Assembly (NCBI RefSeq): GCF_035989285.1
Contig: NZ_CP108513.1
Coordinates: 8,184,001-8,248,000, forward strand
Direction of reading: 5' to 3'
Length of the DNA: 64,000 nucleotides
From: Streptomyces sp. NBC_01235
GTDB taxonomy: Bacteria > Actinomycetota > Actinomycetes > Streptomycetales > Streptomycetaceae
In this document: positions 6,721-36,229 of the stretch, piece by piece
Position numbering within the stretch: the stretch's first letter is position 1
Layout: each line of letters begins with the position of its first letter
Translations under genes and position numbers: made by a program
The notes under the pieces: model-generated
The model's input: the letters and a program-made list of their open reading frames with translations, nothing else
Database searches by the model: none
Told to the model about the DNA's origin: nothing

Positions 6721-6889
6721 GGACCCTCCGAGGGGCGGCAGCGGGCGGGGATTGTCATATAGGCATGACGACCGGCGCGGCGGTGGAATCCGCAGCGCGG
6801 GCCGGGCCGATTTCACCCGGGAGGCAGACGCGGCAGCCCATCACCCGGTCGAGCCGGGGGGAGGGTGGGCGGTCCCGTGTTCGAAGGCT

Positions 6890-6903
6890 TACGCTTCTCT
6901 GTT
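6890..6903 (+). promoter_or_regulatory. Candidate -10 element for leaderless kimA transcript
   Basis: TACGCT at 6890-6895 lies eight bases before GTG 6904, with no ribosome site between. It supports 6904 as a leaderless start. GTG 6877, with GGGGGAGG about 10 nt upstream, is the alternative start. Confidence 0.4.
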
Positions 6904-19720: not shown

Positions 19721-19969
19721 CGGCTCTGTCCCGTCATCGGTGCCGGCGCCGAGTGGTGATCGTTGGAGGAGGACGCGGTGGCGGAGCTGCTGCGGGGTGC
19801 CGCGGTTGCCACCCCGGGCCACGGTGGGGTGGCGTGGCTGGTGTGTATCGATGGGCCCTTTCACGCACGACGGACGGCACCTGTCCGCCGCACGGGGCCA
19901 GGGGCCCGGGTTGGGGCGGCCGGCAGGTCTGACGGGCTCCATGGAAAGCGCGTCGAACATTCTTCGGCA

Positions 19970-19983
19970 GGGCCGTTCGGCCC
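19970..19983. promoter_or_regulatory. DevR/OsdR-type box 1
   Basis: GGGCCGTTCGGCCC is a 14-bp near-perfect palindrome matching the DosR/DevR box core GGGNCNTTNGNCCC. It lies 170 bp upstream of the SLOG-like gene. The same motif recurs at 23452 and, with one change, at 27285. Confidence 0.7.
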
Positions 19984-20152
19984 TTGTTGCCGGTGGGACG
20001 TACTGACTTCACTGATCCCGCGGTCCCGCCCGTGCCGTGGCGCTTGGATCCCGCCTGTGGGCACGGTCTAGCGGTCCCGCTCATGGGCGAGACGGGCGGG
20101 GCCGTGCAGTGCGAGGACGAACGGCAGAGCGAGAGCACCGGAGGACGGGGAG

Positions 20153-20755
20153 GTGAGCGGAGAGATGATCGTGGCGGTCGGGCACACCGACCTCACTCCG
20201 CGGACGCTGAAGCTGGTGGAGGCCGAGCTGCGGGCGGTGCTTGAGCGCCTGGCCGAGCGGGCACCGGGGGTGGTGCGCGCGGGGGCCGGGGTGCCGGTGG
20301 CGTTCGGGCGGGCGGTGCGGGCGGCGGGGCGGGAACTCGTCGTGGTGATTCCCACGCAGGGGATGGTGCCCGCGTTGCTGCCGCAGCGTGACCGGGTGGC
20401 GACCGGTGAGCTGCTGGTTCTCGCCCGACAGGTGCGTCTGCTGGCGTACGACCCGGCGGACCGGGACGCGTGTGTCGGCGAGGACGAGCGGATGGTCGCG
20501 GGATGTCGGCAGGTGGTGGCCGTGTGGGACGGCTCGCCGTCCAACGGCCGTGACGTCACCGCGCATCTGGTGGCGTACGCCCGCGCCCACGGCGTTCCGG
20601 TCGAGGTCGTGTGGCCGGAGGGGGCCGCCCGCGAGGACCTGCCCGGCATACCGGAGCCGGTCAACGGCCGTGCTCCGCACGGCGGCGGCGACGTATCCAC
20701 GACGCCGGTCCCGCGGCCCACCCCGAACACGAGCAAGGCGGAACAACCCCGATGA
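20153..20755 (+). CDS. SLOG/Rossmann-like hypothetical protein, coupled to VKOR
   Basis: A 200-residue soluble protein that I do not recognise as a named family. It starts MIVAVGHTDLTPRTLKLVE, has a Gly/Ala-rich turn (VVRAGAGVPVAFGRAVRAAG) and an acidic patch, and ends its folded part with QVVAVWDGSPSNGRDVTAHL then VAYARAHGVPVEVVWPEGA. This order (G-H-T-D start, glycine turn, W-D-G-S-x-S-x-G strand-loop) is like SLOG nucleotide-sensing Rossmann domains. The last 40 residues are Pro/Gly-rich. GTG 20153 has GGAGG eight bases upstream; ATG 20165 is possible. It overlaps the VKOR start by 4 nt, and a DevR-type box lies upstream. Confidence 0.7.
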   Translation: MSGEMIVAVGHTDLTPRTLKLVEAELRAVLERLAERAPGVVRAGAGVPVAFGRAVRAAGRELVVVIPTQGMVPALLPQRDRVATGELLVLARQVRLLAYDPADRDACVGEDERMVAGCRQVVAVWDGSPSNGRDVTAHLVAYARAHGVPVEVVWPEGAAREDLPGIPEPVNGRAPHGGGDVSTTPVPRPTPNTSKAEQPR

Positions 20756-21417
20756 CCAGCACCACCACGAACGAAGCCCCACTCACCACCAAGACTCGGC
20801 AGGACGGAGTTGGGCGGGAGATCACGTCGGTGGGCGCGACCGGGGCCGGGCGCGCTTTCGCCTGGCTGCTGATCGTGTCCGGCGCTCTTGGCGTCCTCGC
20901 CTCCTTCGTCATCACCATCGACAAGTTCCGCCTCCTTGAGGACCCGGACTTCTCGCCCTCGTGCAACCTCAGCCCGATCCTGTCGTGTGCGAACGTCATG
21001 AAGAGCGACCAGGCGTCCGTGTTCGGCTTCCCCAACCCGCTGCTCGGTCTGCTCGCGTACCCGGTGGTCGTCGCGATCGGCATGGCTTTGCTGTCCGGGG
21101 CCCGCTTCCGCCGCTGGTTCTGGCTCGGGCTGAACGTCGGCACGCTGTTCGGCGCGGGCTTCTGCATGTGGCTGATGACGCAGGCGCTGTACGAGATCGG
21201 CGCGCTGTGCCTGTGGTGCTGCCTGGCATGGGCGGCCACCATCGCGATGTTCTGGTACGTCACCGTGCACAACCTGCGGCACGGGATCATCCGCGCGCCC
21301 CGCGCCCTGGTGGCCGGGGTGCTGGAGTTCCACTGGGCGGTGCCGGTCACCTGGTACTTGAGCATCGTGATGCTGATCGCCACCCGTTTCTGGGACTACT
21401 GGCAGACCTTGCTCTGA
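20752..21417 (+). CDS. Vitamin K epoxide reductase (VKOR) family protein
   Basis: A 221-residue membrane protein with about five helices. The loop cysteines C71 and C79 (SCNLSPILSC) and the active CxxC, C153-C156 in ALCLWCCLAW, are all present, with an extra C157. VKOR reduces quinones and, in bacteria, reoxidises a DsbA-like partner, so it supports disulfide formation in the envelope. The start ATG overlaps the stop of the SLOG-like gene. A long minisatellite begins about 180 bp past its stop. Placement in a DevR-box island suggests induction when oxygen is low. Confidence 0.92.
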   Translation: MTSTTTNEAPLTTKTRQDGVGREITSVGATGAGRAFAWLLIVSGALGVLASFVITIDKFRLLEDPDFSPSCNLSPILSCANVMKSDQASVFGFPNPLLGLLAYPVVVAIGMALLSGARFRRWFWLGLNVGTLFGAGFCMWLMTQALYEIGALCLWCCLAWAATIAMFWYVTVHNLRHGIIRAPRALVAGVLEFHWAVPVTWYLSIVMLIATRFWDYWQTLL

Positions 21418-21596
21418 GCCCGAGGTCGCCCGCACGGCCCGCGCTGGTCGGGCCGTGGGGGCGCGGAGGTTCGTGCGATCGCGGCGGGAGCACGCCACCC
21501 GGTCGTCACCCGTTCGCCGGCCGGGTGACGACGCTGACGCGGGAACGTGTGGGCGGCGGCATACATGCCGGGCCGGTTTGCCCGCCGACTTGCGGC

Positions 21597-22403
21597 CCGT
21601 GCGGCCGCACCGCCCGGGCTCGTGCGGCCGCACCGCCCGGTCCGTGCGGCCGCACCGCCCGGTCCGTGCAGCTGCGCCGCCTGGCCCGTGCAGCTGCGCC
21701 GCCTGGCCGGTGACGGATGCGCCGCCTGGCCGGTGTCGGATGCGCCGCCCGGTCCGTGCGGCTGCGCCGCCTGGCCCGTGCAGCTGCGCCGCCTGGCCGG
21801 TGACGGATGCGCCGCCTGGCCGGTGTCGGATGCGCCGCCCGGTCCGTGCGGCTGCGCCGCCTGGCCCGTGCAGCTGCGCCGCCTGGCCGGTGACGGATGC
21901 GCCGCCTGGCCGGTGTCGGATGCGCCGCCCGGTCCGTGCGGCTGCGCCGCCTGGCCCGTGCAGCTGCGCCGCCTGGCCGGTGACGGATGCGCCGCCTGGC
22001 CGGTGTCGGATGCGCCGCCCGGTCCGTGCGGCTGCGCCGCCTGGCCCGTGCAGCTGCGCCGCCTGGCCGGTGACGGATGCGCCGCCTGGCCGGTGTCGGA
22101 TGCGCCGCCCGGTCCGTGCGGCTGCGCCGCCTGGCCCGTGCAGCTGCGCCGCCTGGCCGGTGACGGATGCGCCGCCCGGTCCGTGCCGCCGCGCCGCCTG
22201 GCCCGTGCCGCCGCACCGCCCGGCCGGTGACGGACGCACCGCCCGGCCGGCGTCGGACGCACCGCCCGGCCGGCGTCGGACGCGCCGCCCGGCCGGCGTC
22301 GGACGCGCCGCCCGGCCGGCGTCGGACGCGCCGCCCGGCCGGCGTCGGACGCGCCGCCCGGCCGGCGTCGGACGCACCGCCCGGCCGGTGTCGGATGCGC
22401 CGC
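21597..22403. repeat. 22/23-bp minisatellite with a 90-bp higher-order repeat
   Basis: The whole stretch is tandem 22- or 23-bp units of the type GCGCCGCCYGGCCSGTG plus a variable hexamer (CAGCT, ACGGAT, TCGGAT or CGGCT). From 21661 to about 22195 four units (22+23+23+22) form a 90-bp block repeated nearly six times with almost no differences (block starts 21661, 21751, 21841, 21931, 22021, 22111). From about 22205 to 22400 come simple 23-mers ending GGCGTCGGACGC. It lies between the stops of two convergent genes. Long open frames across it on both strands are artefacts of the 90-bp period. Confidence 0.97.
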
Positions 22404-22405
22404 GC

Positions 22406-23377
22406 TCAGCGCTTCGCGGCCGCGCGCCGCGCCAGGACGGCGGTCCTGCGCTCGTCGAACCGGGTCGCCTGCGTGTCCAGTGAGCCGAGGAACTCGCCCA
22501 GCTCCTGCTGGGCCTTGAGCCCCTCGGGCCCGAGGCCGGTCAGGTGCAGGACCTTGAGGTGGCGCAGCACCGGCTGGAGGACGTCGTCGTGGTGGACGCG
22601 CAGGTTGTAGACGCCGCCGAGAGCGATCTCGACGGCGGCGCGCTCGAAGCCCGGCAGGCCGTGGCCGGGCATCCTGAAGCCGCTCACCACGTCGGCGACG
22701 GCGCGCAACGCCTGGTCGGGGGCGATCTCCAGGGCGGCCTTGAGCAGGTTGCGGTAGAAGACCATGTGAAGGTTCTCGTCGGTGGCGATGCGCGCCAGCA
22801 GGCGGTCGCAGACCGGATCGCCCGAGCTGCGCCCGGTGTTGCGGTGCGAGATGCGGGTGGCCAGTTCCTGGAAGGCGACGTACGCCACGGTGTGGAGCGG
22901 CGAGTGCCGGTTGTCGGAGACGAATCCGGCGGACATGTGGGTCATGCGGGCCCGCTCCAGTGCCGCGGGGTCCACCGCACGGGATGCCAGCAGGTAGTCC
23001 CGCATGACCATGGAGTGCCGGGCCTCCTCCGCGGTCCAGCGGTGCACCCAGGTGCCCCACGCGCCGTCGCGCCCGAACAGGGTGGCGATCTCGTGGTGGT
23101 AGCTCGGCAGGTTGTCCTCGGTGAGCAGGTTCACCACCATCGCGACCTTGCCCACCCCGGTCAGCGGAGACTGCTCCGGCGCCCAGGGCTCACCGCCCAG
23201 GACCCCGTCGAAGTCCCGTCCTCGGCTCCACGGGACGTACTCGTGGGGCATCCACTCCTTGAACACGCTCAGGTGGCGGTTGAGCTCGCGCTCGACCACC
23301 TCCTCCAGCGCGTGGAGGAGCTGGGTGTCCGTCCACGTGGTGCGTCGGGTGGAACGGGACGGGGGGATGGTGGCCAC
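22406..23377 (-). CDS. Acyl-ACP desaturase (diiron, DesA type)
   Basis: A 323-residue soluble diiron enzyme. The iron ligands are present as the two carboxylate-His motifs TAEEARH (about residue 124) and ATDENLH (about 210), with the earlier Glu in LTEDNLPSYHHE. The family uses O2 to put a double bond in acyl-ACP; mycobacterial DesA1/DesA2 are the nearest kin from memory. The minus strand start has a DevR-type box 75 bp upstream (23452). The stop directly abuts the minisatellite. A link between O2-dependent desaturation and a hypoxia regulon is plausible. Confidence 0.88.
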   Translation of the reverse strand: MATIPPSRSTRRTTWTDTQLLHALEEVVERELNRHLSVFKEWMPHEYVPWSRGRDFDGVLGGEPWAPEQSPLTGVGKVAMVVNLLTEDNLPSYHHEIATLFGRDGAWGTWVHRWTAEEARHSMVMRDYLLASRAVDPAALERARMTHMSAGFVSDNRHSPLHTVAYVAFQELATRISHRNTGRSSGDPVCDRLLARIATDENLHMVFYRNLLKAALEIAPDQALRAVADVVSGFRMPGHGLPGFERAAVEIALGGVYNLRVHHDDVLQPVLRHLKVLHLTGLGPEGLKAQQELGEFLGSLDTQATRFDERRTAVLARRAAAKR

Positions 23378-23451
23378 GGGAAACCGGCCCTTCGCTGCGG
23401 AGACTGAACCTACGGTTCCGTAAGTTATGAGGCCGCGCGATGGCTCCGCAG

Positions 23452-23465
23452 GGGCCGTTCGGCCC
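23452..23465. promoter_or_regulatory. DevR/OsdR-type box 2
   Basis: GGGCCGTTCGGCCC, identical over all 14 bases to the box at 19970, lies 75 bp upstream of the desaturase start on the minus strand and about 390 bp upstream of the small membrane protein on the plus strand. Confidence 0.7.
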
Positions 23466-23605
23466 TACTGGCGCGTAGGTGCGTGGGGAGGTCGGCGCGT
23501 GCCGGGTGCTCCGGCCCCACTCCCGTCCGGGGGATCAGGAGTCCGCAGAGGGGAGATGCACCCGGCCGCTGCGCCAGGAAACCACCAGGCAGGGCGGGCG
23601 CGACA

Positions 23606-23619
23606 GGGCCGAACGGCTC
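23606..23619. promoter_or_regulatory. DevR/OsdR-type box 3 (one mismatch)
   Basis: GGGCCGAACGGCTC matches the reverse-complement form of the box (AA in the centre) with one deviation in the last arm. It is 238 bp upstream of the small membrane protein start. Confidence 0.45.
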
Positions 23620-23797
23620 TGCCGGCCGGGGCCGGACGGCGGCGGGGCGGCGGTGCGAAACTGGCGCGCCTTCCGGTTGCGCCTTCGGCGCTGTCGCCGT
23701 CGCGGTGGTCGGTCGGCCCTGCCGTCCGCGTCCGCCGCGCGTCATCGTCCGGCCTGCGCGCGGGCGACGGGGAAGGCGCGTTCAGGTCCGGCCGCCA

Positions 23798-23843
23798 GGA
23801 GCCGCACCCATGCTTCGACAGGAGCCGCACCCATGCTTCGACA
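23798..23843. repeat. 23-bp tandem duplication in front of a small membrane protein gene
   Basis: The unit beginning GGAGCCGCACCCATGCTTCG occurs twice with a 23-bp period (at 23798 and 23821), each copy carrying its own ATG. It multiplies candidate start sites in front of the gene at 23857. Confidence 0.9.
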
Positions 23844-23856
23844 GGAGATGCCCGCC

Positions 23857-24174
23857 ATGCCTCGTCCGCCCTGTCCGCCTCGTCTTTCCGTGTACGCCGG
23901 CTGCGTCTGCGCCCTGGCCGCGGTCGCCGCGGTGGTGTCCTTCGTCCGGGGCGGATGGGTGGGGATCGTCTGGGTTCTGCTGGCCGGGCTCGCCTCCAAC
24001 ATGGCCTGGTACTACGCGCGCCGAGGCGGGGGCACGGCCGGGAACGGAACCGTTGCCCGGGCCGGGGCCGGCCTCCGCAAGGCCGGGGCGGGGCGCGGGG
24101 CCGCGTCCGTCGGCTGTGAGAGCGGCGGCGCGTGCGGCGTGTGCGTGAGGACGTCGCTGAAGGAGCCCCGATGA
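23857..24174 (+). CDS. Small two-helix membrane protein with a cysteine-containing tail
   Basis: About 105 residues from ATG 23857, which has AGGAG nine bases upstream; ATGs at 23833 and 23848 are in frame and possible. Two hydrophobic helices, LSVYAGCVCALAAVAAVVSF and VGIVWVLLAGLASNMAWYY, are followed by a Gly/Ala tail with SVGCESGGACGVCVRTS (three Cys) that may bind metal or form disulfides. Family unknown. It lies between the desaturase and devR, with two DevR-type boxes upstream. Its stop overlaps the ATG of the next small frame. Confidence 0.6.
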   Translation: MPRPPCPPRLSVYAGCVCALAAVAAVVSFVRGGWVGIVWVLLAGLASNMAWYYARRGGGTAGNGTVARAGAGLRKAGAGRGAASVGCESGGACGVCVRTSLKEPR

Positions 24175-24506
24175 CGACCGCCGGGGACGGGAAGGCGATG
24201 CGGGCGATGCGGGCGATGCGGGTGATGCGGGTGATGCGGGTGATGCGGGTGATGCTCCAGGGGGAGAACCGGTCTCGGACACCACCGGAATTGACGAGTA
24301 CGACGAGTACGACGAGTACGACGAGCGCCACGCGCCCCACGCGCGGCAGGACGCGATGCGGCTGCGTCCGCAGCGGCACTCCCCGGCGCCGCCGCCGTCC
24401 CCGACTGCCGTGCCTGCGCAGGCCGCCGGAGTGCCGGAGGCCGGGGGCTCCTGCCAGGGAGCGCGCCGCGCTCGCGCTGTCCGAGGCGGTCACCCGTCTG
24501 TCCTGA
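24171..24506 (+). CDS. Doubtful low-complexity reading frame
   Basis: ATG 24171 overlaps the previous stop (ATGA), which would favour translation, but the product is a run of MRA/MRV triplets, then STTSTTSTTS, then Arg/Pro-rich sequence. A different frame through the same DNA reads GDAGDAGDA and DEYDEYDEYDE with better codon usage but has no start codon. I cannot tell which, if either, is translated; a frameshifted gene is possible. Confidence 0.25.
   Translation: MTTAGDGKAMRAMRAMRVMRVMRVMRVMLQGENRSRTPPELTSTTSTTSTTSATRPTRGRTRCGCVRSGTPRRRRRPRLPCLRRPPECRRPGAPARERAALALSEAVTRLS
24198..24325. repeat. Nonamer arrays (ATGCGGGYG x6, then GACGAGTAC x3)
   Basis: Six copies of ATGCGGGCG/ATGCGGGTG run 24198-24251, and three copies of GACGAGTAC plus GACGAGCGC run from about 24292 to 24325. 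Both units are nine bases, so they preserve frame. Confidence 0.95.
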
Positions 24507-24655
24507 GGGGTTCCCGGCGCCGTGTACGACGAGGCGGCCGCCATTTCGTGGGGCGGGAGCCGGCGCAGCTCATCGCGCCGGTGTCCACGGTCGATGTCCG
24601 GAACCGGATGAACGTCACCACCCGCAGGACGCCCGGCACGGAGCAGGCGGCCAGG

Positions 24656-24693
24656 TCGACAGTCCGGGCCGCGCGGCTCGTAGGCTGGCTTCC
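24656..24693 (+). promoter_or_regulatory. Candidate promoter of the DevR-like gene, leaderless
   Basis: TCGACA (24656-24661) and TAGGCT (24681-24686) are separated by 19 bp, and the GTG start at 24694 follows the -10 element after seven bases. No ribosome site is present, so the transcript is probably leaderless. Confidence 0.5.
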
Positions 24694-25419
24694 GTGGAAG
24701 CACGCACGCGCACCGGCCCCGTCCCCTCGCCCGCCTCACCTCTGCGGGTGTTCATCCTGGACGACCACGAGGTGGTACGCCGAGGCGTGCGCGACCTGCT
24801 GGAAGCCGAGCCGGACATCGTGGTGGCCGGGGAGGCGGCGAGTGCCCGGGAGGCGCTCGCCCGGGTGCCCGCGGTCCGCCCGCATGTCGCGGTGCTGGAT
24901 GTGCGGCTCGGTGAGGGCGAGAGCGGGGACCACGCGGGGGTCGAGGTGTGCCGGGAACTGCGGGCCCGGATGCCCGAGCTGGCCTGTCTGATGCTGACGT
25001 CGTTCGACGATGACGAGGCGCTGTTCGACGCCATCATGGCGGGCGCCGCCGGCTATGTGCTCAAGCGGATCGACGGCTCCGACCTGGTGGCCGCCATCCG
25101 TACGGTGGCGGGTGGCGAGTCCATGCTGGATCCCCGGACGGCCGCGCGGGTGATGGCGCGGCTGCGCGACCCCCGGCCGGAGCCCGAAGCCCCGTCCGTC
25201 TCACCGGAGTTGGAGCGGCTGTCGCCGCGCGAGCAGGAGATCCTGGAGCTGATCGGAGAGGGCCTGACGAACCGCCAGATCGCCGAGCGGCTGTTCCTCG
25301 CGGAGAAGACGATCAAGAACCGGGTTTCGTCCATCCTGGCCAAGCTGGGGGTGGGCCGCCGCATCCAGGCGGCGATGCTCGCCGAGCGGCTGCGGGAGCA
25401 GCAGGGCTCCGGGCGGTAG
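24694..25419 (+). CDS. DevR/DosR-like (OsdR-type) NarL-family response regulator
   Basis: A 241-residue regulator. The receiver has DD at 23-24, phosphoacceptor D69 in AVLDVRLGEG, T in LMLTSFDDDEA and K in GYVLKRIDGSD. The C-terminal LuxR domain has LSPREQEILELIGEGLTNRQ then IAERLFLAEKTIKNRVSSIL and AKLGVGRRIQAAM. It matches mycobacterial DosR from memory (VVRRGVRDLLEAEPD, LTN.QIA.R.FLAEKT.KN.VS). By family it binds GGGNCNTTNGNCCC-type boxes and turns on dormancy genes under hypoxia or NO. It converges on its likely kinase gene, 11 nt away, rather than sharing an operon. Confidence 0.9.
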   Translation: MEARTRTGPVPSPASPLRVFILDDHEVVRRGVRDLLEAEPDIVVAGEAASAREALARVPAVRPHVAVLDVRLGEGESGDHAGVEVCRELRARMPELACLMLTSFDDDEALFDAIMAGAAGYVLKRIDGSDLVAAIRTVAGGESMLDPRTAARVMARLRDPRPEPEAPSVSPELERLSPREQEILELIGEGLTNRQIAERLFLAEKTIKNRVSSILAKLGVGRRIQAAMLAERLREQQGSGR

Positions 25420-25430
25420 ACCGACGCCGG

Positions 25431-27152
25431 TCAGTCGGCGGTCAGCGGCACCTGCCACACGAGCCGGGTGCCGCCCGCTGCCGGGGACTCGACGGTCAGC
25501 GTCCCGTCGTACTGCTCGGCGCGGGAGCGCAGGTTGGCGAGTCCGCCGGTGGGCCGGGCGTCGCCCGTGCCCACCCCGTCGTCCGTCACCGTGAGGGTGA
25601 GGACGTCCCCGGCCGGCGGCACGGTCAGGACGACGTCCGCCCGGCGGGCGCGGGCATGCCGGGCGGTATTGCTGAGGGCTTCGGCGGTCACCGCCAGAAC
25701 GTGTTCGGCCACGTCGGCGGGGACGGTGGAGTCCACCGGTCCGTCGATCCGAAGGACGGGGCTGAAGCCGAGCGACTGGGCGGCCAGCCGGGCGGTCTCG
25801 GCCAGGCGGCGGCGCAGTCCCGGCCCGCCGCGGTCGTCCCCGGCCGAGCGCAGCTCGAAGATGGTGGAGCGGATGATCTGGACGGTGGTGTCCAGGTCCT
25901 GCACCGCCCGGGAGACCCGTTCGGCCGCGTCGCGGCGCTCGATCATGCGGGTGGCGCTCTGCAGGGTCATGCCGGTGGCGAAGAGCCGCTGGATCGCCAG
26001 GTCGTGCAGGTCGCGGGCGATGCGGTCGCGTTCGTGCAGGACGGCCAGTTCCTCGGACTCGGCGCGGCGCCGGGCGAGTTCCAGGGCGATCGCGGCCTGG
26101 TCGGCGAACCGGGAGACCAGGGCCACCTCGGTGTCGTCGAAGGCGGGGCGGCCCGCGCGCCGGCTCAGGCGCAGGGCGCCGCAGGCCGAGGCGTCCAGGG
26201 GCAGCGGAACGGCCACGGTGGGACCGTACGCGTCCGCGCCGCCCGTGCCGCCGAGCGGATGTGCCCGGGGGTCGCCGTCGATGTCCGCGGTGGTCGCGGG
26301 TTCGGTGGTGCGGGCGGCAAGGCCGGCCAGTGACTCCTGCGTGGGGAGGACCGCTCCCTCGACGTTCCCCCACTCTCGGCTTCGCTCGAGCGGGGGCACC
26401 CCCATGGCGTCGTGGCCGTACGCCACCTCCACCGCGAGCCGGGCACCGTCGCTGCCGGCCGGGAGCAGTACGGCGGCCAGATCGGCGTCGGCCACCTCGC
26501 TCGCTCGCCGGGCGATCAGCCGCAGCACCTCGCGTGCCTCTGTTCCGGCGAGCAGGCTGCGGGTGATCTCGCTGAGCGCTTCGAGCCAGCGTTCCCGGCG
26601 GCGGCTGTCGTGGTACATGCGGGCGTGGTCGATGGCGACTCCGGCCGCGTTGGCCAGGGTGGACAGGACCGCCTCGTCGTCGGCGTCGAATCCCGCCCCT
26701 CCCCGCTTCTCGGTCAGGTACAGGTTGCCGAACACCTCGTCCCGTACGCGGACGGGCACCCCCAGGAACGTACGCATCGGCGGATGGTGCTCGGGAAAGC
26801 CGTAACTGTTCGGGTGCCGCGTCAGGTCCGTGAGGCGCAAGGGGACCGGGTTGTGGATCAGCTCGCCGAGGATGCCGCGCCCACAGGGGGCCTGGCCGAT
26901 CCGGGCCGCGAGCTCGTCGGCGATGCCCACCGGCAGGAACTGCGACAGCCGCTGACCGTCGCCGATCACGCCGAGAGCGCCGTATTCGGCGTCGGTGAGG
27001 GTGATCGCCGCCTCCACGATGCCGCGCAGCACCTGGGGGAGTTCGAGGCCCCGGCCCAGGTTCGTGACGGCGTCGAGGAGGCTGTGCATCCGGTCCGGCA
27101 CGTCGAGCCGAAGCGGTGACGACGCCGCGGTCGGGGGTGGTGATTCGGGCAT
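25431..27152 (-). CDS. DevS/DosT-like (OsdK-type) two-GAF sensor histidine kinase
   Basis: A 573-residue cytoplasmic kinase. GAF-A (about residues 25-180) carries HHPPMRTFLGVPVRVRDEVF with GNLYL. H123 and Y145 are 22 apart, the same spacing as the haem His149 and distal Tyr171 of DevS, so haem sensing of O2/NO/CO is likely. GAF-B covers about 190-360. The HisKA_3 box is RDRIARDLHDLAIQRLFATG with H383, and the HATPase has TAEALSNTARHA and DDGVGTGDARPTGGLANLR. A dispersed Streptomyces repeat adds PPLERSREWGN inside GAF-B. The gene is convergent with the DevR-like regulator. Confidence 0.9.
   Translation of the reverse strand: MPESPPPTAASSPLRLDVPDRMHSLLDAVTNLGRGLELPQVLRGIVEAAITLTDAEYGALGVIGDGQRLSQFLPVGIADELAARIGQAPCGRGILGELIHNPVPLRLTDLTRHPNSYGFPEHHPPMRTFLGVPVRVRDEVFGNLYLTEKRGGAGFDADDEAVLSTLANAAGVAIDHARMYHDSRRRERWLEALSEITRSLLAGTEAREVLRLIARRASEVADADLAAVLLPAGSDGARLAVEVAYGHDAMGVPPLERSREWGNVEGAVLPTQESLAGLAARTTEPATTADIDGDPRAHPLGGTGGADAYGPTVAVPLPLDASACGALRLSRRAGRPAFDDTEVALVSRFADQAAIALELARRRAESEELAVLHERDRIARDLHDLAIQRLFATGMTLQSATRMIERRDAAERVSRAVQDLDTTVQIIRSTIFELRSAGDDRGGPGLRRRLAETARLAAQSLGFSPVLRIDGPVDSTVPADVAEHVLAVTAEALSNTARHARARRADVVLTVPPAGDVLTLTVTDDGVGTGDARPTGGLANLRSRAEQYDGTLTVESPAAGGTRLVWQVPLTAD
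26365..26405. repeat. Dispersed Streptomyces palindromic element inside the kinase coding sequence
   Basis: The element CTCTCGGCTTCGCTCGAGCG, flanked by CCCCC and GGGGG, is one I know from memory as a very common Streptomyces intergenic repeat. Here it sits in frame within the kinase and encodes about 14 residues around PPLERSREWG (residues 253-262). Confidence 0.7.
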
Positions 27153-27251
27153 TGCTGGCGCTCCTGGACCGGTCGGTGCTCAGCAGCGTACGACCGCCGT
27201 ACGGGGGGATGCGCGCCCGGACGCTCAGCGGCGCGACGAGAGGACGAAGAG

Positions 27252-27265
27252 GGGACGTTGGACCC
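27252..27265. promoter_or_regulatory. DevR/OsdR-type box 4
   Basis: GGGACGTTGGACCC fits GGGNCNTTNGNCCC and, with A at position 4, is the closest of the set to the mycobacterial consensus GGGACTTNNGNCCC. It lies 100 bp before the kinase start (minus strand) and 170 bp before ctaD. Confidence 0.7.
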
Positions 27266-27284
27266 TGCAAACGGGTCTTCGGGA

Positions 27285-27298
27285 GGGCCCTTCGGCCC
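27285..27298. promoter_or_regulatory. DevR/OsdR-type box 5
   Basis: GGGCCCTTCGGCCC starts exactly 33 bp after the start of the previous box, about three helical turns, so two dimers could bind on the same face. It is 124 bp upstream of the ctaD start. Confidence 0.7.
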
Positions 27299-27421
27299 TA
27301 TCCGGACCCGGTACCCCACCGCCGATCATGAGGCGGCGACAGGGAAGAGCCAGGTCAACATGCGCACCACGGCACTTCCCGGCTCGTCGAGCACATGAGC
27401 TGATGGGGAGGAAGCCGTCCG

Positions 27422-29122
27422 GTGGACGAGGCACAGATACAGCAGATGGGGACCGAGCGGCCGCACGCCGCGGTCGCCGTGGCCGACCAGGCGTCCGGAC
27501 CGGCGGAGCACGCGGCGGGCGGATCGTCGTGGACGGACTGGCTGACGACCACCGACCACAAGAAGATCGGGACGATGTACCTGGTCACCGCGTTCGTGTT
27601 CTTCATGGTCGGCGGGGTGATGGCTCTGCTGATGCGCGCGGAGCTCGCCCGGCCCGGTCTGCAGATCATGTCGAACGAGCAGTTCAACCAGGCGTTCACG
27701 ATGCACGGCTCGATCATGCTGCTGATGTTCGCGATGCCGCTGTTCACCGGCTTCGCCAACTGGATCATGCCGCTGCAGATCGGCGCCCCGGACGTGGCCT
27801 TCCCGCGACTGAACATGCTCGCCTACTGGCTCTTCCTGTTCGGCTCGTCGATCGCCGCGTTCGGCTTCCTCACCCCGGGCGGCGCCGCCGACTTCGGCTG
27901 GTTCCTGTATGCCCCGCTGTCCGACGCCGTCCACTCGCCGGGCCTCGGCGCCGACCTGTGGATCATGGGCGTGGCCCTGTCGGGCTTCGGCTCGATCGCG
28001 GGTGCGGTCAACTTCATCACCACGATCGTCTGCATGCGCGCACCCGGCATGACCATGTTCCGGATGCCGATCTTCGTGTGGAACGTGCTGCTGACCGCGG
28101 TGCTGATCCTGATCGTGTTCCCGGTCCTCGCGGCGGCCCTGTTCGCCCTGGAGTGCGACCGCAAGTTCGGCAGCCATGTCTTCGACGCGGCCAACGGCGG
28201 CGCGTTGCTGTGGCAGCACCTGTTCTGGTTCTTCGGTCATCCGGAGGTGTACATCCTGGCGCTGCCGTTCTTCGGGATCGTCTCCGAGGTGATCCCTGTC
28301 TTCTCCCGGAAGCCGATGTTCGGCTACATGGGCCTGATAGGCGCGACGATCGCGATCGCGGGCCTGTCGGTGACCGTATGGGCGCACCACATGTACGTCA
28401 CCGGCGGTGTCCTCCTGCCGTTCTTCTCCTTCATGACGTTCCTGATCGCGGTGCCGACGGGCGTGAAGTTCTTCAACTGGATCGGCACCATGTGGAAGGG
28501 CTCGCTCAGCTTCGAGACGCCGATGCTGTGGACCACGGGCTTCCTGATCACCTTCGTCTTCGGTGGCCTCACGGGCGTGATCCTGGCCTCGCCGCCGATG
28601 GACTTCCACCTCTCCGACTCGTACTTCGTCGTCGCGCACTTCCACTACACGGTCTTCGGCACGGTCGTGTACGCGATGTTCGCCGGCTTCCACTTCTGGT
28701 GGCCCAAGTTCACCGGCAAGATGCTCGACGAGCGCCTCGGCAAGATCACGTTCTGGACGCTCACGGCGGGCTTCCACCTGACCTTCCTCGTCCAGCACTG
28801 GCTGGGTGCCGAGGGCATGCCCCGCCGGTACGCCGACTACCTGGCCGCCGACGGCTTCACCGCTCTCAACACCCTGTCCACGATCGGGTCGTTCCTGCTG
28901 GGCCTGTCGATCCTGCCGTTCTTCTACAACGTCTGGAAGACCGCCAAGTACGCCACGCCGGTCGAGGTCGACGACCCGTGGGGCTACGGCCGTTCGCTGG
29001 AGTGGGCGACCTCCTGCCCGCCCCCGAGGCACAACTTCACCAAGCTGCCGCGGATCCGGTCCGAGTCTCCGGCCTTCGACCTCCACCACCCCGAGATCGT
29101 CGCGGCCGAGGCGGTGAGCTGA
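27422..29122 (+). CDS. ctaD: Cytochrome c oxidase (aa3-type) subunit I, stand-alone copy
   Basis: A 566-residue integral membrane haem-copper oxidase subunit with twelve helices. The low-spin haem ligands are in [12 protein letters not shown] and [10 protein letters not shown], the high-spin/CuB set is in [13 protein letters not shown] (with the His-Tyr pair), and [10 protein letters not shown] is also intact. GTG 27422 has GGAGG about ten bases upstream; ATG 27449 is an alternative. No ctaC, ctaE or qcr genes are near, so this is probably a second subunit I that assembles with partners encoded elsewhere. Two DevR-type boxes lie upstream, pointing to low-oxygen induction. Confidence 0.95.
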
Positions 29123-29123
29123 G

Positions 29124-29663
29124 GTGTCCCACGCCGTCCTGGCACTGGGCGCGGCGCTGGTGACCGCCGCCGGCTGCGTCTGGTACGTCCCCGCCCTCGC
29201 CGACCTGCGCGCGGGGGCCGACCGGCCGGTCTCCCGCCGTACCGCGGCGGCGGCCTGCCTGACCGGCTGGAGCACGACCGCGGTCGTCGCCGTGGTGCTC
29301 TTCGCCGGCGTGGTGTGGCAGGCGGCCTGCGTCATGGCGGTGACGGGTGTGACCGCCGCGGCCGCGCTGCGGATCCGTGCCGCCGCGCAGCACCGCCAGG
29401 AGGTGCGGGAGATCGCCCGTCACTGGGCGGCGCTGGACCCCCGCACGCCCGAACACGGCCGCTCCCGGCACGCCTTCGCCGCCCTCCTCGCCTGCGGACT
29501 GGCCGCCGCCGTGACCGCGGCGGCCCTCCTGGTGACCGCCGGACCCGAAGACGGCGCGGACTGGCTCATGGCCGCCACCGCTCCCGCCGCGATCGTCGGC
29601 CTGACCCTCGCCATCGCGGTCACGCACACCCGCACGACCCGCCGCACCACTGCGGGCCGATAA
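29124..29663 (+). CDS. Hypothetical multi-helix membrane protein downstream of ctaD
   Basis: A 179-residue protein with about five hydrophobic helices (MSHAVLALGAALVTAAGCVW, TTAVVAVVLFAGVVWQAACV, then two pairs after a charged central loop RIRAAAQHRQEVREIARHW). I do not recognise the family. GTG 29124 follows the ctaD stop after one base, so it is co-transcribed and translationally coupled; it may be an accessory subunit of this oxidase. Its last 240 bases are overlapped on the other strand by an open frame of doubtful value. Confidence 0.75.
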   Translation: MSHAVLALGAALVTAAGCVWYVPALADLRAGADRPVSRRTAAAACLTGWSTTAVVAVVLFAGVVWQAACVMAVTGVTAAAALRIRAAAQHRQEVREIARHWAALDPRTPEHGRSRHAFAALLACGLAAAVTAAALLVTAGPEDGADWLMAATAPAAIVGLTLAIAVTHTRTTRRTTAGR

Positions 29664-31507: not shown

Positions 31508-34500
31508 CTATGGGTTGAGCCAGTACGTGGACAGTTGGTAGGCGCCGTCGGGTCGTTGGATGACCCGGTAGCCGACGTCGTGCCCGTCTATCGTCACCGA
31601 CCCGTCGAGCGGGCCGGAGAAGCCGGGGGTTCCGGGGCGGGGAACGGCCCCGCCGTCCCTCATGTATCCGTACACGTCGGAGACGATCGCCTGTTCGATC
31701 TGGTCGGGCTTCAGGTTGGTGGTGCGTAGATCGTTCGTGGTTCCGCCCGGTCCGGTGTGGGCTCGGTCGTAGCCGTGGCCGGTGTTGAAGTGCCACTGGT
31801 CGTCCCCCACCATGGCGGAGCGTTTGAGATCCTGCCCCTCGCCCTTGGAGGTGTACTCGCCGATCGTCGGGTCGTCACCGTTCTTGTACGGCGACAGGCC
31901 GAAGGGGTCGCAGAGGGCGTGCGGGTTGGTCACGTAGGCGACCGGGTTCGGCGCCGGGGAGAGTCCCAGCGGGTCCGGGGAGGTGTACCGGCCGGTCTCC
32001 GGGTCGTAGTGACGGAAGAGGTTGTAGTGGAGGCCGGTCTCCGGGTCGTAGTACTGGCCGGGGAAGCGAAGCGGGGTGTAGGCCGTGCTGGAGCGGGACC
32101 AGGCGGTGGTTCCCCAGAGCGTGGTGCGGGTGCGCCAGGCGATGTCGCCGGACTCGTCGATCAGTTCGGTGGGGGTGCCGATCAGGTCGGTGGCCACGGC
32201 GAAGAAGCGCCGGTCGATCTCCTCCTGACGGGCGTCCGGGGTGAGGATGCGTTCGGTCTGCGCGAGGGGCACGAGACCGCGGTGCTCCCAGGTGAGCGCC
32301 ACCGGACGGGGCAGATCGCTGGAGACGGTGGTCTGTTCGCAGAGGGTCAGGCCGTCCCAGGTGAAACGGATCTCCTCTGTCACGGTCTCGCCGTCCGCCG
32401 CCAGGCGCTGCTTGGCGGTGCGCCGGCCCAGGGGGTCGTAGCGGTAGCGCCAGCGGGTGCCGTCGGGAGTGACGACGGAAGTGAGGCGGTCCTCGGCGTC
32501 CCATGTGTAGCGCCAGGTGTCCGGTTTGCGGGAGAGCCGGGTCTTCTGGCGCAGGGTGACGCGGCCGAGGGCGTCGTGCTCGAAGCGGATGCCACCCGCA
32601 CGCGTGACGGTGGTACCGGTGTAGGCGCGGGGGCCGGTGGCCTCGTGGCCGGGGTGTGAGTCGGGCCAGGCGGCCGAGGTCTGGTTGCCGCTCGCGTCGT
32701 AGGCGTACCGCTCGCTCCAGCCGTGCGCGTGGACGGCGGTGACCCGGCCGACCGGGTCGAGGTCGAAGGTGCGCGCACCCGACACCCGGTCGGACGTCGC
32801 GGTGAGACGGCCGTCGGCGCGGTAGGCGTACGTGCGCTCGTTGAGGGTGCGGGAACCGGCGGCGAGGTGCTGGGCGGACAGCCGGCCGGCCTCGTCCCAG
32901 GCGGAGGTCTGGGTGACGATGTCGGCGAAGACGCGAACCACTTCGCGTCCGGCCGCGTCGTGCGCGAAGGTGATGGCGTGGCCTCCGGACGTCACCCGGG
33001 TGGGGCGGCCCGCGGCGTCGTAGGCGTAGCTCGTGACCAGTCCGGTGGGGGTGGTGCGACGGATCCGGCGGCCGACGGCGTCGTAGGCGTGGTCGAGGGC
33101 GCGGCCGTCGACGAGTTCGGTCTTGAGCCGGCCGCACCGGTCGTAGCGGCGCACCAGTTCGCTGTCCGGACCCGACGCCTGGACCAGGCGTCCGGCGCGG
33201 TCGTAGGCGTGGACGGTGACCCGGCCCGCGACCTCCTTGCGCAGCACCCGGCCGAGCTCGTCGTACGCGTACGCGGCCACGCCGCCGAGGTGATCGGTCC
33301 GGGTGATGAGCTGACCGGCGGCGTCGAGGCCGTAGGTGACGGTGCGGCCGTCGAAGTCGGTCTCGGAGACGAGCCGGCCGGCCCGGTCGTACCCGTACGT
33401 CCAGACAAGCCCCTGAGGGTCGGTGACCCGGTTGAGCCGCAGGCCGGCGTCGTGCTCGAACTCGTACCGTGCGCCGTCGGGCAGGGTGCGGGCGGCGAGG
33501 AGGTCGAAGTGGGTGTACTCGAAGCGGGACACCCCGCCCGCCGCGTCGGTGTGGGTGAGGCAGTTGCCCTCGCCGTCGTAGGTCCATGACTCGGTGGCGC
33601 CGTCGGGGCCCGTGCGCCGGGCGAGCTGCCCGTCGGCGTGCCACTGAAGGCGGGTGACGGCGCCCACCGCGTCGGTGATGCGGACCGCACGGCCGAGGGC
33701 GTCGCGTTTCAGGCGGGTGGTGCCGCCGGCCGGGTCGGTCACCTCCACCGGGCGGCCGGCCTCGTCGCAGCGCACGACGGTGGCGGCCCCCAGAGCATCG
33801 GCGACGGACGTCAGGAGACCGGACCCGTCGTAGGTGTAGCGGGTGGTGCGGCCGGCCGGATCGGTGACCGCCGTGCGGTTTCCCCGCTCGTCGAACTCCT
33901 GGAGCCACCGGGCGCCGTCCGGGTCGTGACGTTCCGTGGACAGGCCGAACGGGCCGCGTACGACACGGAGTTCGGTGCCGTCGGGACGGGTGACCGTGAC
34001 AAGCCGGCCCTCCTCGTCGTAGGAGAACGCGGTGGTGCGGCCCAGCGGGTCCGTGCGGGTCAGGAGGTTGCCGCCCGGGTCGTAGGCGAACCTGGTGGTG
34101 TGGCCGAGGGGGTCGGTGGTGGCCAGGACGTGGCAGCCGGGGCCGATCAGGTGCCGGGTGGCCCCGCCGTCCGGGGTGGTCAGGACCGTCGTCCGGTGGC
34201 CGGTCTCGGCGTCGGGTTCGGTGTAGGCCAGGGTGATCTGGACGTGGCCGGCCTCGCCGCCCTCCGCGACGACGCGGTCGCGGTCGTCGTAGACGTAGTC
34301 GTAGCGGCTTCCGTTGGAGTCGATCCAGGCGATGACGCGGCGGCGGTCGTCGTAGACGAACGTGGTGGTGGCGCCTGACGGCTTGGTGACCTCGGTGAGG
34401 TCGCCGTCCTGATAGCCGTAGCTGATCAGGGGCAGGTCCGCGCCGTGCTCGCCCGCGCCGGCCAGGAACAGGCCGGTGACCAGGCCGTCGGCGACGGACA

Positions 34501-36229
34501 GCCGCGCCCGGTGGCCCGCCGAGTGGGCGAGGGCCAGCGGCAGGCCGTCCTCGGCGCGGTCGACGGTGATGGTGTGGCCGTTGCGTTCGGCGATCGCGGA
34601 CAGCCAGGCCGTGCCGTCGCCGCCCGGCTCGGTGCCTGGCGGGGCGGTGAAGTGGCGGGTCAGACCGGTGTCGGGGTCGGTGACCGTGAAGTCGCCGTCG
34701 GTGTCCCGGGCGAGGAGCGTGCGGGAGCGGCCCGAACGCGGCCGGGTGGGCAGGCCGGGGACCGGATGTGGATACGGGATCAGGAGCCCGTCGGCGGTGA
34801 CGTGGACGACGCCGATGGCGTCGATCTGCAGGCGCTCGTCGACGGTGGACGTCCAGGCGGGCCCGAGGAAGCGGCCGGTCGCCGTTCCGGACTCGGTGCG
34901 GCGGGCGAAGACCAGCGGCAGGATGCCGGGGAGTTCGAGGTCGGTCTGGGGCAGGAACATCCGGCCCGAGGCGAGGTCGACCGGGTCGGTGCCGTCGGTG
35001 ACGCGCTCGCCGTCCGGACGGCGGTGGGTCCCCTCCGGGGCGTCGTCGAGCAGCCGGCGCAGCCGCGCGGCGTCGGCGGCGTCCTCGGCGATGCGCACGC
35101 CCTTCACCGCCGCGCCGCCGCCACCGGTGGCGACGGTCAGCGCGACGTCGGGAAGCAGCCGGCCGAAGCCCTCGGCCGGGTCCTTCATGAAGTCGCCGAT
35201 CATCTGCTTGCCGGTGCCGACCGGGTCGTTGGCGGCGACCACCAGACCGGCGGCCAGGCTGTTGAGGGACGTGGCGTACTCGGCCGGGTGCGTGATGTTG
35301 TACGGGTCCATGGGGTTGACGCTGCGGACGAAGTTGAGAATCCCCGCGGTGCCCTTGATGAGGCCGCCGCCTACGTGGTCGCCCATGAGCTGCAGCTCCT
35401 GCATCCCGTCGCCCAACTGCTCGGCGTAGGACGGCTTCTGCGGAGCCAGGTCGCGGGCGGCGCGGACCGCGGAGCGCGCGGTCTCCGCCGCCGAGTTGCG
35501 CTGCTTGCGGGCCTCGGCCAGCAGGTCCTGCGCATCCTGCATCAGCTTCTTGCCGGGGTCGTCGAACGTCGCCGCGGGCCTGGGCGGGAGCGAGGCCGGG
35601 TCGCGCTTGTCGGCGGGCTGGGCGTTGTAGCGGTCGACGGCGCCGTTGTAGTCGTCGACCTTCTTGCGGTGGGCGTCGGCGGCGTCCTCGGAGGCCTTGA
35701 CGCCCTCCTTCCACTTGTCGATCGCCGTCTGCGCCTGTCCCTGCGCCCAGGTGACCGTGCCGGCGAACGCCTCCAGCGCGGCGGCCGCCTTCTCGCAGGC
35801 ATCGGCACCGGTGAACCACTTGGGCGGCTGGGTGCCCACCGCGGTGCGCAGCGCCTCGGCCGTCTCGCCCTTGAGGCGGGAGGAGTCGAGGCCCTTGAGA
35901 CCGTCGCCGGCGCTGTCGAAGGCAGACTGGAAGGCGCGGAGCTTCGTGGCGGTGGAGGTGATCTCGCTCGGGCTGCCGTAGATCAGCTTGGTCTTGTCCT
36001 CGGTCTGTCCGAGGTCCATCTCGTCGACCTCGGCGCCCAGCCGGTTGGCGACCGAACGGGACTGCTCGCGCACCCAGTCCGCACCGGACTCCCAGCCGAC
36101 GTCCTCCAGCCGGTCTGCGGTCCAGTTCCCGGCGTCCTCGACCCGGTTGCCCACCCATTCGACGCCGCCCTCGACCGCGTCCTCGACCGAGTCGGGCGTG
36201 ATGTCACTGATGAAGTCGCCGATGCCCAC
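31508..36229 (-). CDS. WXG-like/RHS polymorphic toxin with variable C-terminal tip
   Basis: A 1573-residue secreted-type toxin. Residues 1-300 are helical and WXG/ESX-like (IGDFISDITPDSVEDAVEGG; GVEWVGNRVEDAGNWTADRL; WKEGVKASEDAADAHRKKVD), as in putative type VII-secreted proteins, followed by glycine-rich hydrophobic segments (about 280-380). A DUF6531-type start of the RHS shell comes next (DPVDLASGRMFLPQTDLELP), then dozens of YD repeats (about 600-1300). The RHS core end is LRFPGQYYDPETGLHYNLFR, HYDPETGRYTSPDPLG and CDPFGLSP. The last ~125 residues (GYDRAHTGPGGTTNDLRTTN; GYRVIQRPDGAYQLSTYW) form a toxin tip I cannot assign; it has His/Thr/Arg candidates of an RNase-like kind. Confidence 0.88.
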   Translation of the reverse strand: MGIGDFISDITPDSVEDAVEGGVEWVGNRVEDAGNWTADRLEDVGWESGADWVREQSRSVANRLGAEVDEMDLGQTEDKTKLIYGSPSEITSTATKLRAFQSAFDSAGDGLKGLDSSRLKGETAEALRTAVGTQPPKWFTGADACEKAAAALEAFAGTVTWAQGQAQTAIDKWKEGVKASEDAADAHRKKVDDYNGAVDRYNAQPADKRDPASLPPRPAATFDDPGKKLMQDAQDLLAEARKQRNSAAETARSAVRAARDLAPQKPSYAEQLGDGMQELQLMGDHVGGGLIKGTAGILNFVRSVNPMDPYNITHPAEYATSLNSLAAGLVVAANDPVGTGKQMIGDFMKDPAEGFGRLLPDVALTVATGGGGAAVKGVRIAEDAADAARLRRLLDDAPEGTHRRPDGERVTDGTDPVDLASGRMFLPQTDLELPGILPLVFARRTESGTATGRFLGPAWTSTVDERLQIDAIGVVHVTADGLLIPYPHPVPGLPTRPRSGRSRTLLARDTDGDFTVTDPDTGLTRHFTAPPGTEPGGDGTAWLSAIAERNGHTITVDRAEDGLPLALAHSAGHRARLSVADGLVTGLFLAGAGEHGADLPLISYGYQDGDLTEVTKPSGATTTFVYDDRRRVIAWIDSNGSRYDYVYDDRDRVVAEGGEAGHVQITLAYTEPDAETGHRTTVLTTPDGGATRHLIGPGCHVLATTDPLGHTTRFAYDPGGNLLTRTDPLGRTTAFSYDEEGRLVTVTRPDGTELRVVRGPFGLSTERHDPDGARWLQEFDERGNRTAVTDPAGRTTRYTYDGSGLLTSVADALGAATVVRCDEAGRPVEVTDPAGGTTRLKRDALGRAVRITDAVGAVTRLQWHADGQLARRTGPDGATESWTYDGEGNCLTHTDAAGGVSRFEYTHFDLLAARTLPDGARYEFEHDAGLRLNRVTDPQGLVWTYGYDRAGRLVSETDFDGRTVTYGLDAAGQLITRTDHLGGVAAYAYDELGRVLRKEVAGRVTVHAYDRAGRLVQASGPDSELVRRYDRCGRLKTELVDGRALDHAYDAVGRRIRRTTPTGLVTSYAYDAAGRPTRVTSGGHAITFAHDAAGREVVRVFADIVTQTSAWDEAGRLSAQHLAAGSRTLNERTYAYRADGRLTATSDRVSGARTFDLDPVGRVTAVHAHGWSERYAYDASGNQTSAAWPDSHPGHEATGPRAYTGTTVTRAGGIRFEHDALGRVTLRQKTRLSRKPDTWRYTWDAEDRLTSVVTPDGTRWRYRYDPLGRRTAKQRLAADGETVTEEIRFTWDGLTLCEQTTVSSDLPRPVALTWEHRGLVPLAQTERILTPDARQEEIDRRFFAVATDLIGTPTELIDESGDIAWRTRTTLWGTTAWSRSSTAYTPLRFPGQYYDPETGLHYNLFRHYDPETGRYTSPDPLGLSPAPNPVAYVTNPHALCDPFGLSPYKNGDDPTIGEYTSKGEGQDLKRSAMVGDDQWHFNTGHGYDRAHTGPGGTTNDLRTTNLKPDQIEQAIVSDVYGYMRDGGAVPRPGTPGFSGPLDGSVTIDGHDVGYRVIQRPDGAYQLSTYWLNP

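Follow-up and report, generated by a model that had tools for sequence, protein, structure and literature searches.

A putative second DevRS/DosRT-type two-component regulon with a boxed ctaD2 gene in Streptomyces sp. NBC_01235

Introduction

What does a Streptomyces locus control when a DevR-like response regulator, a DosT/DevS-like kinase and an additional gene for cytochrome oxidase subunit I (ctaD2) lie together among DevR-type palindromes, and is it the known OsdR-OsdK system or another one? The locus in question lies in Streptomyces sp. NBC_01235, within a 64-kb stretch of DNA that we refer to as the window (bases 8184001-8248000 of the single 11.09-Mb contig NZ_CP108513.1; G+C 71%). An initial annotation of the window described an island at positions 19970-27298 as a self-contained regulon for hypoxia or dormancy. 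The analysis presented here indicates that the island is probably a second DevRS/DosRT-type two-component regulon responding to O2 or nitric oxide (NO), with ctaD2 as an output. No prior description of this system or of ctaD2 was found among the records listed by searches of open-licence literature.

Results

DevR/OsdR-type boxes

The initial annotation placed five 14-bp sites at 19970, 23452, 23606, 27252 and 27285. All five sit at these positions, four as exact matches to the pattern and the site at 23606 with one mismatch. The annotation had also proposed that the loose pattern GGGNCNTTNGNCCC be counted against chance, and here no enrichment was found, with 36 exact matches in 11.09 Mb and 41 for the reversed control. 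When one mismatch was allowed, the window held 8 matches versus 11.8 expected. A tight 16-mer at up to 3 mismatches showed a modest excess only (448 in the genome versus 322 for its reversed control), and at one mismatch or fewer it occurs at 8 places in the genome, 3 of them in the island. Because the loose pattern is common genome-wide, we turned to a description obtained independently of it, from the published OsdR sites.

A symmetric 16-bp matrix was built solely from S. coelicolor OsdR sites, using all 26 printed in Table 1 of PMC5069765. At a threshold of 15 bits it has exactly four matches in the window (19969, 23451, 27284 and 23605), where 0.2 are expected per 64 kb, as estimated on 6.4 Mb generated by a third-order Markov model. 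All four are among the five annotated sites, and the fifth-ranked match in the window reaches 11.3 bits. The same four strong sites were obtained with a matrix from 21 of the 26 sites, which is the one used below for the counts on related loci, gene families, ctaD loci, box centers and ctaD leaders. Elsewhere in the genome, a threshold of 14 bits gives 8 matches over the 100 kb at 8.70-8.80 Mb, 16 over the 80 kb at 9.655-9.735 Mb and 8 over 60 kb near 1.0 Mb, compared with 1 over 140 kb of control stretches.

The top match of the window, AGGGCCGTTCGGCCCT (19969-19984, plus strand, 21.3-21.8 bits), lies ~190 bp upstream of a SLOG-VKOR operon and is kept upstream of SLOG or VKOR in the related loci L083, L085 and L116. 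The box GGGGCCGTTCGGCCCT (23451-23466, plus strand, 19.7-20.0 bits), ~80 bp upstream of a desaturase gene, is identical in L083 and L084, as are most of its flanks. Two sites occupy the intergenic region between the kinase gene and ctaD2: the proximal box AGGGCCCTTCGGCCCT (27284-27299, plus strand, 18.3-18.5 bits), which starts 54 nt before the leader hairpin described below, and the distal weak box GGGGACGTTGGACCCT (27251-27266, plus strand, 9.6-10.1 bits), the score of which is by itself within background. This pair, with its spacing of 33 bp, is kept in L083, L084, L085 and L116. The boxes, as predicted from the matrix and from conservation, are real DevR/OsdR-type elements, and the matrix bears out their assignment to the regions in front of SLOG-VKOR, the desaturase gene and the kinase/ctaD pair.

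The remaining match is the box-like site AGGGCCGAACGGCTCT (plus-strand reading; 23605-23620, minus strand, 15.4-15.6 bits). We rejected it as a conserved part of the island, since L083 has only a degenerate form of it and L084 has none, and its function is doubtful.

The regulator and the kinase

The regulator gene (24694-25419, plus strand) encodes a protein of 241 residues with a receiver domain (PF00072), the phospho-Asp equivalent and a LuxR/GerE helix-turn-helix domain (PF00196). It is identical to Mycobacterium tuberculosis DevR at 119 of 210 aligned residues (57%) and keeps the equivalents of DevR D54 (here D69), K104, K179, K182 and N183, the last three being K205, K208 and N209 in the window protein and corresponding to what we take to be the DNA-contact residues of DevR. 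The kinase gene (25431-27152, minus strand) is convergent with the regulator gene and encodes a GAF-GAF-HisKA_3-HATPase protein. Its GAF-A domain shares 87 of 147 residues (59%) with that of DosT; His123 and Tyr145 align with DosT H147 and Y169, presumably the heme ligand and the distal Tyr of GAF-A, and the equivalent of G85 is kept (DosT residue numbers were assigned by chain offset). Among 41 rows of window-type kinases the heme His is found in 39 and the distal Tyr in 40, the remainder being gaps. Judged by these residues, the kinase would bind heme in its first GAF domain. The annotation of a DevR-like regulator and a DevS/DosT-like kinase in the middle of the island is therefore upheld, Pfam domains and key residues being in agreement.

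Phylogenetic placement and paralogous systems

Quick maximum-likelihood trees (65 and 83 rows, computed without bootstrap and with the S. coelicolor OsdR and OsdK sequences left out) place the window regulator in a 38-row clade and the window kinase in a 41-row clade. Both clades have a value of 100 in the Shimodaira-Hasegawa-like approximate likelihood ratio test (SH-aLRT), and the other copies of the genome fall outside them. These are two close DevR-type regulators at 8.74 Mb (69% identical) and 9.66 Mb (67%), both in regions with the same kind of box, and two close kinases at 9.70 Mb (57%) and 8.78 Mb (54%), the last of which is a long branch in the kinase tree. S. bambusae (L104) carries a window-type and an OsdRK-type pair side by side. 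The trees suggest that the window pair probably belongs to a paralogous sister clade and is not OsdRK. By score, 24 of the 295 genomes sampled from the genus have a window-type kinase, the genome of the window included, membership in this count being defined by at least 600 bits (next score 573) and not by the tree. The 80 related kinase loci are from Streptomyces except for five from Kitasatospora and one from Streptosporangium nondiastaticum.

Of the paralogous regions, that at 8.71-8.78 Mb (L163, L165, L166) is box-rich and has its own OsdR-type regulator, kinase and VKOR gene (47% identical). A fourth DevR-like regulator, split over frames and probably a broken copy, was seen in L175 at 6804-7456 (C1:10766804-10767456), with box-like sites nearby.

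Synteny and boxes in related loci

The related set comprises 41 loci (L083-L123, 824 kb), to which the window was added for the gene-family tallies; L104 also contributes its OsdRK-type pair. Genes in the relatives were called with a simple codon-score gene finder, and clustering gave eight recurrent families: the kinase, the regulator, a flavohemoglobin-like protein (globin, FAD and NAD domains in L087), ctaD, a 179-residue protein, SLOG, a pyridoxamine-oxidase-like protein (PF12900 in L085) and VKOR. One of the 17 ctaD loci (L096, 172 residues) is probably an artefact, and the kinase of L103 is split in two frames and missing from the kinase tree. The 41 loci contain 71 boxes of at least 15 bits, 62 of them near the eight recurrent families, against an expectation of ~2.4 over 824 kb from the Markov rate of the window. 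An upstream box of this strength was found for SLOG in 11 of 13 cases, for the pyridoxamine-oxidase-like gene in 9 of 11, for the flavohemoglobin gene in 12 of 18, for the regulator in 20 of 38, for ctaD in 8 of 17 and for the kinase in 18 of 41. The values are 1 of 10 for VKOR and 0 of 13 for the 179-residue protein, which in the window lie downstream of SLOG and ctaD, respectively; all other genes together gave 18 of 544.

In L105, L106, L108, L112 and L121, window-type kinases are located near a shared gene set and a phosphatase-type regulator. By eye the set resembles what we take to be gas-vesicle genes (GvpF/L- and GvpJ-like).

The ctaD2 gene and its promoter

ctaD2 (27422-29122, plus strand; NF050116, 1005.7 bits) encodes an aa3-type cytochrome oxidase subunit I and is one of three copies in the genome, sharing 86% identity with the one at 3.44 Mb and 71% with the one at 0.41 Mb. 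No two-box DevR-type promoter was seen before the 86%-identical copy (L184). Directly downstream of ctaD2 is the gene for the 179-residue protein (29124-29663, plus strand), a probable membrane protein of no named family, with no match in Pfam or NCBIfam; within the clade set 13 loci have it, as do 18 of the 32 loci of a wider ctaD sample. We divided this wider sample by the presence of the 179-residue neighbor, a split made after looking at the data, and two loci (L185, L190) were unreadable. An upstream box of at least 12 bits precedes ctaD in 10 of 17 readable loci with the neighbor, the window included, versus 1 of 13 loci without it (L212, which has VKOR and kinase-like flanks). In S. poonensis (L159) an OsdK-type kinase lies near a boxed-type ctaD2. 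These comparisons suggest that ctaD2 belongs recurrently to DevR-type regulons of Streptomyces.

A conserved inverted repeat at 27338-27385 (plus strand), seen in an alignment of 26 loci, is probably a hairpin in the mRNA 5'-leader of ctaD2. Its arms are of the GGCCGGGAAG type, and the loop is C-rich in many relatives. In the 26 chosen loci 89.9% of the cells are paired, with 20 double-change cells versus 7.6 in shuffles, and pairing falls to 34-58% when the partners are slid. A covariance model, of which the window sequence is one row, hits a single place in the window's own genome, the ctaD2 leader (E 0.0012; 150 of 24,692 first-look candidates scored); in 459 kb of collected sequence the next match had an E of 0.2. 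No Rfam family matched the hairpin at its gathering score (best E 2.3), and it has no terminator-like tail. The 26 rows are the loci in which the stem was found among the 17 and 32 ctaD loci and form a chosen set, not a rate. The set excludes L103 and L203, in which the stem has a very long loop, L183, which duplicates the window, and L194 and L201, which nearly repeat L193 and L200. It also excludes L186, L189, L190, L192, L199 and L202, where the script detected no stem or the sequence went unread, as well as all ctaD loci that lack a stem of this kind. The inverted repeat may instead be a palindromic operator; the 14-bp arms, the loop of ~20 nt and the compensatory changes favor RNA. We consider it probably an RNA hairpin and, from its pattern of pairing, a possible new cis-regulatory RNA.

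The boxes keep a fixed distance to this hairpin. In 18 of the 26 chosen leaders a box of at least 8 bits begins 50-54 nt ahead of the hairpin, and in 18 another begins 84-88 nt ahead of it; both are present in 15, and some hairpin loci (L193, L200) are without a strong box. As 33 bp corresponds to about three helical turns, two dimers could sit on one face of the DNA. Were transcription to begin immediately upstream of the hairpin, the -35 region would fall partly within the proximal box; neither a sigma-70-type promoter nor a terminator was found in 27100-27450.

Other features of the island and the window

The first gene of the SLOG-VKOR operon (20165-20755, plus strand) encodes a protein of 196 residues from an unnamed family, for which searches of Pfam, NCBIfam and the Protein Data Bank (PDB) gave no match by sequence. 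One AlphaFold model confirmed a SLOG Rossmann-like fold, as had been annotated; structure prediction covered this protein alone. The SLOG fold typically binds nucleotide-derived ligands. The second gene (20752-21417, plus strand), which overlaps the first by ATGA, encodes a VKOR-family disulfide-bond membrane protein of 221 residues (PF07884, E 3.6e-43, scanned with the longer frame 20611-21417), with a loop pair Cys71/79 and a CXXC motif, CLWC, at 153-156 (C153, C156). The desaturase gene (22406-23377, minus strand) belongs to the acyl-ACP desaturase family and is DesA2-like (PF03405, E 5.1e-69; M. tuberculosis DesA2 structure 1za0, E 9.9e-41). Among L083-L162 it was found only in L083, L084 and L085. 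Of the initial gene calls, those for SLOG-VKOR, the desaturase, the regulator, the kinase and ctaD stand (Pfam, model), while the small membrane open reading frame (ORF) at 23857-24174 is weakly supported. This ORF was rejected as a conserved part, for its stretch does not align to L083.

Between the VKOR and desaturase genes, 21655-22403 is a tandem array with a 90-bp unit (8.3 copies, 93% match). Outside the island, 31508-36229 (minus strand) encodes a large protein that has RHS repeats and a putative type VII secretion signal domain (T7SS_signal, DUF6531); two small ORFs without a Pfam match lie beside it. An Rfam 5_ureB_sRNA match (58.4 bits) lies at 39926-40288 (minus strand).

Discussion

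The observations presented here allow us to weigh what the island is. That its boxes are chance palindromes of a 71% G+C genome, or the palindrome of an unrelated regulator, is scarcely credible. The loose pattern is no commoner than its reversed control and site 23605 is not conserved, as this explanation would have it; however, an independent matrix that expects 0.2 matches per 64 kb finds the boxes, and their position, spacing and orthologous promoters are conserved. For 19969, 23451 and 27284 conservation already makes a chance origin unlikely, and 23605 may be such a palindrome. It is also very unlikely that the island is the osdRK locus itself (the SCO0203/SCO0204 orthologue), relocated. 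The protein families and the box are the same, and the S. coelicolor sequences were left out of the trees. On the other hand, regulator and kinase both fall in separate clades, with the copy from the region rich in universal stress protein (Usp) genes outside, and S. bambusae and the window genome each have both types. The island also lacks a Usp cluster, and its two genes are convergent, not operonic. Of the 35 Usp matches of the genome, 16 map to 9.67-9.72 Mb, two groups of 6 lie near 1.01 Mb and near 5.06 Mb, and the others are scattered. None falls between 8.70 and 8.80 Mb, and the window has no cluster, its single weak match (1164-1508) lying ~18 kb from the island. The stress-protein cluster typical of published OsdR/DevR islands is thus elsewhere, and the label of dormancy given to the island is not supported.

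A third explanation is unlikely as well, though it deserves more attention: the boxes may be worked mainly by the other OsdR-type regulators (8.74 or 9.66 Mb), with the local pair being accessory or having another job and the island being an outlying part of the OsdR regulon. Two such regulators, with kinases, do lie in box-rich regions of this genome, boxed ctaD2 promoters also occur where no window-type kinase was found, and the equivalents of K179, K182 and N183 are the same in the window-type and OsdR-type groups, single exceptions aside. What stands against it is that the boxes accompany the window-type regulator-kinase clade in synteny, and that both the box centers and the protein differ. 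Among the boxes of window-type loci 52 of 73 have a TT/AA center, versus 38 of 100 among those of OsdK-type loci; within the genome all 4 boxes of the window have it, versus 4 of the 18 that lie in the other two islands (Fisher 0.0096). Such a center is not private to the window type, since 3 of the 6 boxes near 1.0 Mb also have it. The residue following the DNA-contacting Asn is Arg in all 38 regulators of the window clade, while in the 25 OsdR-type regulators having one it is His in 19, Asn in 5 and Arg in 1. Together, centers and residue suggest that DNA recognition has diverged.

A second DevRS/DosRT-type regulon remains the reading that we hold to be probable, and several observations weigh against it. 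In the window there is no box upstream of the regulator gene, and the two other OsdR-type regulators could bind the same boxes. For 8 of the 10 boxed ctaD2 loci the score criterion detects no window-type kinase in the genome; the boxes there must therefore serve another regulator, presumably of the OsdR type, and ctaD2 may be a member of DevR-type regulons at large. Linkage of ctaD was seen in 15 of the 41 related loci within the fetched stretches, some contigs ending early, and the subclade of the L105-L121 type is without a linked ctaD and has a different gene order. The locus counts are not independent, as the species are related. With close DevR-type regulators in boxed regions elsewhere and boxed ctaD2 genes in genomes without the kinase, the description of the island as self-contained in the initial annotation is not supported.

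In the mechanism that we propose, low O2 or NO would alter the heme state of GAF-A, and the kinase would phosphorylate the convergently encoded regulator. A regulator dimer would then bind the GGGCCGTTCGGCCC boxes and recruit RNA polymerase, acting as an activator and not as a repressor. Through the two boxes about three helical turns apart it would activate ctaD2 and, divergently, the kinase gene, and through the other boxes the SLOG-VKOR operon and, in this lineage, the acyl desaturase gene. The output under falling O2 or rising NO would be a subunit I to substitute in the aa3 oxidase, together with disulfide/quinone redox functions; CtaD2 would be a low-O2 or NO-tolerant form that takes the place of CtaD. 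An alternative respiratory subunit, QcrB3 (SCO7236), has been proposed to be spore-specific in S. coelicolor (PMC7931247), which makes a conditional CtaD2 plausible.

A broader scheme is possible, although we put it forward as speculative. Some Streptomyces may run at least two parallel DevRS systems with diverged recognition. The OsdR branch would serve stress proteins and nitrate; the other, respiratory, would have a regulator with Arg after Asn183 that prefers TT-centered boxes and switches in CtaD2. The ctaD2 mRNA would carry a new structured cis-regulatory 5' leader, so far seen only at this gene, so that DevR-type transcription and control of the oxidase at the mRNA level would be combined. 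Duplicated DevRS systems in one cell would be a natural case, useful for learning how paralogous gas-sensing pathways stay apart. The boxed ctaD2 promoter makes it directly testable why Streptomyces keep several ctaD copies, and the uncharacterized SLOG protein, VKOR and the probable membrane protein downstream of ctaD2 would become attached to oxygen control.

Among the closest known systems is OsdR-OsdK of S. coelicolor (SCO0204-SCO0203, also named DevR-DevS), for which PMC5069765 gives the consensus AGGGCCGATCGGCCCT and activation by OsdR of the promoters of uspA, osdR and SCO0207; PMC4766573 describes OsdK autophosphorylation as lowered by an NO donor in vitro. Both systems have a DevR-like regulator, a DosT/DevS-like kinase and the same binding element. 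However, osdR and osdK form an operon in a universal stress protein island, whereas the window genes are convergent and without a Usp cluster, and the window pair is in a different clade from the Usp-island copy of its own genome. The proposed targets ctaD2, SLOG-VKOR and the desaturase gene were not seen in Table 1 of PMC5069765, and a search of the main text of that paper for the terms cytochrome, ctaD, desaturase and SCO7234 found none of them. The likeness to DevR/DosR, DevS and DosT of M. tuberculosis lies in the regulator identity, the GAF-A identity, the heme His, the distal Tyr and the DNA-contact residues. The gene content differs from that of the window island, the regulator has Arg at the position of DevR Tyr184, and the kinase has Gly like DosT where DevS has Glu87. 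Among single components, the SLOG protein has by its model the same fold as the SLOG superfamily (YpsA, DprA, LOG, Moco carrier protein), with ~10-20% identity in structural alignments. The CutR-controlled SCO1507 of S. coelicolor, predicted to recycle DsbA (PMC10433416), is likewise a VKOR under a different regulator; unlike SCO1507, the window VKOR is coupled to a SLOG protein and a DevR-type box.

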